A stretch of DNA of 38,930 bases from Acidimicrobiales bacterium (GTDB lineage: Bacteria > Actinomycetota > Acidimicrobiia > Acidimicrobiales > SZUA-35). Below, one piece after another: positions 37,149 through 38,930 of this stretch. The notes under the pieces were generated by a model. It searched no databases. It worked only from the letters and a program-made list of their open reading frames with translations, and was not told the origin of the DNA. Each line of letters begins with the position of its first letter. Position 1 is the first letter of the stretch. The position numbers and the translations under genes are program-made. The DNA lies in the NCBI GenBank assembly GCA_024638805.1, contig JAHEJO010000004.1, positions 1 through 38,930 of the forward strand, written 5' to 3'.

Positions 37149-37616
37149 CTACTTGGAGATCGGAGCCACCGTGGCGTTGGTGAGCGAGGCGAGCGCGCTC
37201 GGGGCCAGGGAGATCTCGAGGCCCCGACGGCCGCCGCTCACATACATCGCATCGAGCCCAACCGCACTGTCGTCGATGACCGTAGGCAGGCGGCGTTTCT
37301 GGCCGAGCGGGCTGATACCACCAACCAAGTAGCCAGTCGCCCGTTCAGCTGACACGGGGTCGGCAATCGACGCCTTCTTGGCACCGATCGCCCGGGCCAG
37401 TGCCTTGAGGTCGAGCTTGGCGCTGACCGGCACGACCGCCACGGTCAAACCCAGATCGGCCACATCGGCAACCAGGGTCTTGAACACCGCAGACGGATCG
37501 ATGTCGAGCTTCTCCGCAGCCTCGCTCCCGTAGCCTTCGTTTGCCGCCGAGTGCTCGTAGGTGAGCACCTCGTGCGGGATCCGGCGAGCTTGGAGTAGTT
37601 TGATCGCCGGTGTCAC
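37149..37616 (-). CDS. ybaK: Cys-tRNA(Pro) deacylase (YbaK/EbsC)
   Basis: A 155-residue editing enzyme that clears mischarged Cys-tRNAPro. Key features: the catalytic Lys in FKTLVAD, GGISPLGQKRRLPTVID, and GGRRGLEISLAP. Size and motif spacing are typical. The GTG start at 37616 has no clear ribosome binding site. It sits between cobU and the DUF4389 gene without a shared role. Confidence 0.93.
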   Translation of the reverse strand: MTPAIKLLQARRIPHEVLTYEHSAANEGYGSEAAEKLDIDPSAVFKTLVADVADLGLTVAVVPVSAKLDLKALARAIGAKKASIADPVSAERATGYLVGGISPLGQKRRLPTVIDDSAVGLDAMYVSGGRRGLEISLAPSALASLTNATVAPISK

Positions 37617-37644
37617 GATAGGGCTGTGCTCCGAGCCCGATCGT

Positions 37645-38223
37645 TCACAGCTCGAGCGGGATCAGGGTCCGCTGTGCCTCCCGCCAACCAGCGTCGTCCA
37701 ACTCCACGAGCCGGCCGGCGACGACCAGGAACGAACGGGCGAACTCGCCGACCAGCATCCGGTTGACTCGACCCTGGAGGTTTCGCTGTCTGGCGCCCGG
37801 CCCTCGATCCGGTGTCACCCCCATACCGATCTCGTCGCTGACGACGACCGTCGGTCCCGATCGGGTGGCGAGTCCGATCGACACCGCCCGGGCGGACTTC
37901 TCGATCATCTCCGGAGACTCCCCGGTGAGCAGCCGGTTGTGGAGCCATGTGGTGATCGAGTCGAGCACGAGCAGATGGGCGGGGTGCACCGAGGCGATCG
38001 CATCGGCCAAATGGATCGGGGCCTCGATGACATTCCAGTCCGGTGGCCGTTTCGACTTGTGGGCCAGGATCCGCTCGGCCATCTCGGGGTCGAGGGGTTC
38101 GGCGGTGACGATCGCCGACACGGTCAGGCCGTGGGCGCGAGCGGTGCTGGTGGCGAGTTTCTGGGCGGCGAAGGACTTGCCCGATTGAGCTCCGCCGATG
38201 AGCAGAACGGAGTGTGCGCTAAT
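37645..38223 (-). CDS. cobU: Adenosylcobinamide kinase/guanylyltransferase, apparent ATT start
   Basis: Phosphorylates adenosylcobinamide and loads GMP on it, in the nucleotide-loop assembly of cobalamin. 192 residues. P-loop LIGGAQSGKS at the start; HKSKRPPDWNVIEAP carries the His that takes GMP; VSDEIGMGVTPD and GRVNRML follow. No ATG, GTG or TTG lies before the P-loop in this frame; the first, GTG 38121, would delete it. The best start is ATT 38223, overlapping the cobO stop (ATTAG) with AAGAAGGGA seven bases upstream. If the DNA is correct, this is a rare ATT initiation. Confidence 0.9.
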   Translation of the reverse strand: MSAHSVLLIGGAQSGKSFAAQKLATSTARAHGLTVSAIVTAEPLDPEMAERILAHKSKRPPDWNVIEAPIHLADAIASVHPAHLLVLDSITTWLHNRLLTGESPEMIEKSARAVSIGLATRSGPTVVVSDEIGMGVTPDRGPGARQRNLQGRVNRMLVGEFARSFLVVAGRLVELDDAGWREAQRTLIPLEL

Positions 38224-38812
38224 AGTCGATTCCCTTCTTGGCCAGTATCCCCTGATCGAAGGCGTGTTTGACCACCTTCATCTCGGTGACGGTGTCGGCG
38301 ACGTCGATGACTTCCTGGGCCATGTCCCGCCCGGTCAGGATCAGGTTGAGCTTTTCCGGCCGAGCGACGATGGCGGCTGCCACCTCCGTCGGGTCGACCC
38401 ATCCCCACGCCATGGCGTAGCTGATCTCGTCGAGCACGATGAGCCGATGGGCGCCGCTGGCGATCAGGCCTTCGGCGAACTCCCAGCCCGCGATCGCCTT
38501 GGCCTTCGATTGGTCCAGGTCCTCCGAATCCCAGGTGAAGCCATCGCCGGCGGCGTACCAGTCGACCTCCAATCGCCGGCACAGCTTCTCCTCGCCGACG
38601 TGCCATTCGCCGCTCTTGAGGAACTGGACCACGGCGACGGGCCAGTCCATCGCCAGCGCCCGCAGGACCACACCGAACGCTGCGCTCGACTTACCCTTCC
38701 CGTGACCGGTATTGACCAGGACGAGGCTGGGGACGGTTCGGAACCGGTCCTTGTCGGGGGCGGCGGTGGGGATGTCGGCCGGTGTGGCTGTGGGGGTGTG
38801 GTCGTCAGACAT
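38219..38812 (-). CDS. cobO: Corrinoid adenosyltransferase (CobO/BtuR type)
   Basis: Transfers the adenosyl group of ATP to cobalt of corrinoids. 197 residues. P-loop VNTGHGKGKSSAAFG at 33-47, KSGEWHVGEEKL, and LIVLDEISYAMAWGWVD with the Walker B acid. An N-terminal extension of about 25 residues is Thr/Ala/Pro rich. ATG 38812 has AAGGA five bases upstream and TAGACT (38831-38836) as a likely -10. cobU follows with overlapping ends. No B12 riboswitch would fit in the short leader. Confidence 0.95.
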   Translation of the reverse strand: MSDDHTPTATPADIPTAAPDKDRFRTVPSLVLVNTGHGKGKSSAAFGVVLRALAMDWPVAVVQFLKSGEWHVGEEKLCRRLEVDWYAAGDGFTWDSEDLDQSKAKAIAGWEFAEGLIASGAHRLIVLDEISYAMAWGWVDPTEVAAAIVARPEKLNLILTGRDMAQEVIDVADTVTEMKVVKHAFDQGILAKKGIDY

Positions 38813-38830
38813 CGGAGTCCTTGCGGGGGC

Positions 38831-38836
38831 AGTCTA
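38831..38836 (-). promoter_or_regulatory. -10 hexamer of cobO
   Basis: On the minus strand TAGACT, 18 bases before ATG 38812, leaving room for a short leader with the AAGGA site. Confidence 0.45.
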
Positions 38837-38858
38837 GACACCCCAGGGTTGTTGCGTG

Positions 38859-38930
38859 TCAAGCAGCGGTCGTGAGTTGTGCGGGTTGGCGGTGGGCCCA
38901 GGCGGTGTGTTCGTTGTAGTGGGTGCGGGT
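38859..38930 (-). CDS. Possible 3' end of a gene entering from the right
   Basis: On the minus strand 23 codons are open from the window edge and end in TGA (HYNEHTAWAHRQPAQLTTAA is the last part). The HYNEH stretch recalls the C-terminal HYN-x-RPH motif of DDE transposases (IS3/IS481 type), but the match stops there. Too short to assign. Confidence 0.25.
   Translation of the reverse strand, partial: TRTHYNEHTAWAHRQPAQLTTAA

Follow-up and report, generated by a model that had tools for sequence, protein, structure and literature searches.

A putative ATT start codon places cobU in a five-nucleotide overlap with the cobO stop in an Acidimicrobiales bacterium

Introduction

The pcnB gene of E. 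coli starts with ATT. So does infC (PMC5472188), which is autoregulated through IF3, and in Streptomyces the regulator sigR, repressed by IF3, has a GTC start that is conserved across species; the stop of sigR, not its start, overlaps rsrA (PMC5472188).

Reinitiation at overlapping stop and start codons, as in ATGA and TGATG pairs, is well documented (PMC6728339, PMC10666635). Canonical starts exclude overlaps of 5 nt; ATTAG is among the forms that are possible with ATT, a rare route (PMC10666635), and ATT has about 0.3% of the efficiency of ATG in E. coli (quoted in PMC10666635). Extra IF3 lowers reinitiation, less so with a Shine-Dalgarno sequence, and random initiation at non-canonical codons has been cited for ribosomes that stay on the message (PMC2268962). 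The same work argues that a 30S-IF3 complex is necessary for accurate reinitiation, which would therefore disfavour reinitiation on ATT.

Here we describe a cobO-cobU junction in a window of 38,930 nucleotides, one whole contig of an 84.6% complete metagenome bin from an Acidimicrobiales bacterium (G000). Like ATGA and TGATG pairs, the junction has start and stop bases in common, an upstream purine stretch and functionally linked genes; unlike them, it has an overlap of 5 nt (ATTAG), a length called incompatible with canonical starts, and its start would be ATT. As in infC and pcnB, ATT is the sole plausible start of a conserved gene, but cobU is a metabolic gene of the vitamin B12 pathway that overlaps an upstream stop and shows no sign of regulation. 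With sigR it shares being an actinobacterial gene with a non-canonical start, but cobU differs between species in its type of start, and its genomic setting suggests that constraint is relaxed. Two species of the same genus (G001 and G002) carry cobO-cobU-cobT-cobS operons with the same order at this junction; unlike in G000, their cobU begins with ATG, in TGATG or TAATG, and cobT and cobS are retained.

Results

The cobU frame has no canonical start ahead of its P-loop

The genes at the junction are as follows.

38219..38812, minus strand: cobO, corrinoid adenosyltransferase, with an ATG start and a TAG stop at 38221-38219 (PF02572, E 4e-58; NF004637)
37645..38223, minus strand: cobU, adenosylcobinamide kinase/guanylyltransferase, 192 codons from the proposed ATT at 38223 to TGA (PF02283, E 7e-37)
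38173..38196, minus strand: P-loop of CobU, GGAQSGKS (usual form GGARSGKS)

The cobU frame is open on the minus strand from 38277 to 37645, and its first ATG, GTG or TTG is the GTG at 38121, well past the P-loop, which starts at 38196; initiation there would drop this essential N-terminal motif. Both points had been made in a first-pass annotation of the DNA, and the reading frame agrees with them. The gene names given there are borne out by the domain matches, PF02283 matching CobU over positions 1-167 of the 168 in the domain, with 127 bits, and PF02572 matching CobO with 197 bits. Near-cognate codons 5' of the P-loop in this frame are ATC 38256, ATT 38223, CTG 38205, and ATC 38199. ATT 38223 lies 9 codons ahead of the P-loop glycines, and relatives have ATG or GTG at 7-8; this position relative to homologous starts, together with an independent ATTAGC in another genus (see below), makes ATT 38223 the likely start of cobU, as had been proposed. 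The peptide predicted from it is SAHSVLLIGGAQSGK.

Geometry of the cobO-cobU junction

38219..38223, minus strand: ATTAG, 5-nt stop/start overlap formed by the proposed ATT start and the cobO TAG stop (read directly from the sequence)
38231..38239, minus strand: AAGAAGGGA, Shine-Dalgarno-like purine stretch in the Lys-Lys-Gly codons of cobO

The end of cobO reads GAC TAT TAG, and in the +1 frame cobU reads ACT ATT AGC. The last T of ATT (38223-38221) is common to the cobO stop (38221-38219), and the overlap, counted from the first base of ATT through the last base of TAG, is 5 nt. Stop and start (38223-38219) thus overlap as in termination-reinitiation pairs. This overlap had been recognized in the first-pass annotation, which had also correctly placed ATT seven bases after the purine stretch, whose end at 38231 (from 38239) is 7 bases upstream. 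In relatives too, including those with ATG starts, the stretch at this site specifies the conserved KKG of CobO, so it is not special to ATT.

Because a 5-nt overlap makes the first T of the stop serve also as the start's third base, ATG, GTG and TTG are impossible there, and no canonical start can exist in the register of ATT 38223. A change of 38221 to G makes ATG, removes the cobO stop and extends CobO by 201 residues past its conserved ending GIDY.

An Rfam search of the window gave no riboswitch match. A 65-base stretch upstream of cobO (window 38830-38894) recurs in G000 on a different contig (L002), with 89% identity.

Starts of cobU in relatives

We surveyed 153 distinct CobU loci from the family, the order and beyond, 52 of which adjoin cobO, for an ATG, GTG or TTG located 4-30 codons ahead of the P-loop. 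Such a start was missing at 7 of the 153 loci; lacking a canonical start is uncommon for cobU. Among the cobO-adjacent genes 5 of 52 lacked one, all in the source bacterium's own family, namely G000 (ATT) and four species of genus g8 (G020, G011, G025, and G028). Two cobU genes with no recognizable adjacent cobO, L160 (in G401) and L107, also have no canonical start within this range.

Comparison of the junction in relatives, which the first-pass annotation had recommended, makes the observation more general than first reported. All four readable g8 species lack a canonical cobU start and have CTG or ATT: G020 carries ATT in an identical ATTAGC (GACTATTAGCGG at the junction) with no other canonical start, G011 reads CTGAGT, and G025 and G028 read CTGATC. 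The start candidate shared by the latter three is the CTG of a CTGA overlap, a near-cognate counterpart of the widespread ATGA overlap; for G025 and G028 ATC is possible as well. The g8 CobU proteins retain the conserved columns (1-3 departures of 38), and CobS is present in the genomes of these species. The nearest cobU-bearing relatives of G000 are the ATG-starting G001 and G002, and the ATT is thus not conserved in close relatives in the manner of an IF3-regulated, infC-type start. In the CobO tree G020 falls among the CTG species and G000 among the ATG species, and the CobU tree agrees where it is resolved. Because the two group apart, ATT arose twice, independently in G000 and G020.

Operon erosion and divergence of CobU

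37149..37616, minus strand: ybaK, Cys-tRNA deacylase (TIGR00011, 176.6 bits; synteny)

Gene order is transporter-cobO-cobU-cobT-cobS in G001 and G002 and cobO-cobU-ybaK in G000, where ybaK starts 28 nt after cobU, at the place in which the sister species carry cobT and cobS. In G003 ybaK comes next after cobO and cobU is missing, and G004 has cobO and no cobU, so that two of the four other members of the genus are without CobU (cobT, the transporter genes and the G003 ybaK were named from their sequences). CobS was found in G001 and G002 and was not found in the G000, G003 or G004 assemblies; as the G000 assembly is 84.6% complete, its CobS could sit in the missing part. No second CobU copy was found in the G000 assembly. 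Gene content and order show the cobO-cobU-cobT-cobS operon eroding within the genus of G000.

This erosion is a stepwise loss of the nucleotide-loop genes cobU, cobT, and cobS from one operon in a single genus (window 37149-38223; L039, L040, L196, and L198).

CobU of G000 scored 124 bits against the NCBIfam equivalog NF004469, below its 161-bit cut-off, which is consistent with divergence; membership in the Pfam family is unaffected. The protein keeps the P-loop G, S, G, K, and S and H55, and is changed by R13Q, C89S, N130D, R144A, and D148N. Of 38 conserved columns it deviates at 7, where the median is 2; one of the 153 deviates at more. Its branch length is 0.54, versus 0.17 for G001 and 0.17 for G002; for CobO the values are 0.21 in G000 and 0.075 and 0.18 in the sisters. 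CobO of the G000 lineage is also faster than that of G001, and the acceleration is therefore not wholly specific to CobU. For cobU, dN/dS was approximately 0.25 between G000 and G001 (dS near 1.2) and approximately 0.15 between G001 and G002. The reading frame is intact across 192 codons, which together with the dN/dS points to a CobU that was constrained for most of its history.

Apparent near-cognate starts in other genes

We screened sampled contigs of four genomes for coding potential. Few genes were flagged, and most of the flags were shadow or over-extended frames, a selenocysteine-type in-frame TGA, or a frameshift, on which grounds a genome-wide loss of start rules was rejected. In the 400-kb control sample of G042 no convincing case was found, the flagged frames looking by eye like shadow frames.

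Besides cobU, two candidates survived, an alpha/beta hydrolase gene and a PIN-domain (VapC-like) gene. In 10 of 10 species, which belong to four genera and include G000 (G025, G030, G020, G011, G021, G013, G015, G002, G000, and G003; L322-L332), the first column of the hydrolase alignment is an invariant CTG, the apparent start. This CTG overlaps, or just follows, the stop of a small conserved gene; there is no canonical start nearby, and in G025 and G011 the ORF has no space for one further upstream. None of 13 other near-invariant Leu columns is codon-uniform, and the remaining Leu codons of the gene are CTG in 35% of cases, which gives 10 of 10 a chance of about 2.5e-5 when relatedness is ignored. 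In G011 (L335) and G004 (L336) the PIN gene and its upstream partner overlap in a CTGA, and no canonical start lies ahead of the domain; its G021 relatives carry an ATG or GTG just ahead.

A molybdopterin oxidoreductase gene of G011 with an in-frame TGA (L263:13564-15255, minus strand) is probably a selenocysteine formate dehydrogenase. A DUF2262 frame of G025 (L317:1624-2154, minus strand) is a direct continuation of an upstream frame past an in-frame TAG and may represent a broken gene or readthrough.

Loss of IF3 was considered as a cause and rejected. Neither infC nor its usual neighbour rplT was found in G000, and infC is present in relatives; because rplT is absent too, this region is probably missing from the assembly.

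Discussion

By a modest preference, we read the locus as one in which CobU starts at ATT 38223 by reinitiation, the ATT being tolerated under weakening selection and not itself selected. Any CobU made would start at this codon. A ribosome (or its small subunit) finishing cobO at TAG, already positioned over the overlap, would restart on ATT with fMet-tRNA, aided by the purine-rich KKG codons just upstream. Overlap with the stop would relax the need for a canonical start, and ATT would be used because of the 5-nt geometry. So weak a start would be tolerated in G000, with cobT and cobS being lost and selection on CobU weakening, and would not be tuned to set the CobU:CobO ratio. The loss of cobT and cobS from the operon, the failure to find CobS in the assembly and the degeneracy of CobU all indicate relaxed constraint, which is probably the cause of the tolerated start.

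The same losses could mean that cobU is dead or nearly dead, its canonical start gone as CobU became unneeded, with little or no protein made. Such an outcome would fit the absence of cobT and cobS from the locus and of CobS from the assembly, the absence of any CobU in two of four other genus members, and the substitutions at R13, C89, N130, R144, and D148. We consider it unlikely, though worth keeping in view, given 192 codons with neither stop nor frameshift, a dN/dS of about 0.25, and a CobU domain matched at nearly full length with 127 bits. The functional-looking cobU of g8 also lacks a canonical start, and therefore a missing ATG alone is not proof of death.

It is improbable that ATT was selected to hold CobU low relative to CobO, perhaps sensed by IF3. 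Precedents exist in the ATT of infC and in the GTC of Streptomyces sigR, repressed by IF3 (PMC5472188), and non-canonical starts are maintained across genus g8. However, the two nearest cobU-bearing relatives use ATG, the start type switches freely between ATT and CTG, and the pathway is being dismantled in the genus of G000. The claim in the first-pass annotation that CobU is kept low relative to CobO is thus unsupported, with CobT and CobS gone from the operon, CobS not found, and CobU degenerate.

It is decidedly improbable that translation begins at a different near-cognate codon, for instance CTG 38205 or ATC 38256. Aside from ATC 38199, which sits right at the P-loop, these are the sole in-frame alternatives ahead of that motif, and in other members of the family the start is likely to be CTG, but CTG 38205 would leave three residues before the P-loop glycines, fewer than annotated-type starts do in relatives, and ATC 38256 lies inside cobO and is not conserved.

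That a sequencing or assembly error hides a normal start, as had also been suggested, is very unlikely even for a metagenome-assembled contig: a single-base ATG would delete the cobO stop, so that several wrong bases would be required, and the assembly of another species (G020) has the same ATTAGC. Relatives with ATG at the position of 38223, which were to have exposed such an error, are geometrically excluded since G at 38221 destroys the cobO stop. Least credible is a programmed frameshift yielding a CobO-CobU fusion in which cobU needs no start, for which the overlap of the two genes in different frames could be cited; the shift would have to be +1 in G000 and G020 but -1 in G011, G025, and G028, the junctions show no slippery sequence in common, and the closest relatives have ordinary ATG starts.

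Returning to reinitiation at ATT under weakening selection, the window would catch an operon midway through loss. For this family of uncultured Acidimicrobiales as a whole, we propose only tentatively that near-cognate starts (CTG and ATT) may be a standing and conserved trait of genes in which translation reinitiates on an upstream stop, recurring at stop overlaps because the overlap relaxes the demand on the start. The start-codon rule would then be relaxed, annotation would miss or truncate genes, and otherwise forbidden 5-nt overlaps would be possible. Such an overlap, called possible only via starts such as ATT (PMC10666635), would have two independent natural cases in one gene, and these two cobU ATTAG cases stand beside a hydrolase gene in which ten species retain the apparent CTG start. 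Confirmation would mean that start-codon rules are looser at reinitiation sites and that gene finders truncate or miss such genes, and a bypass of IF3 proofreading by reinitiation would become testable with natural sequences.
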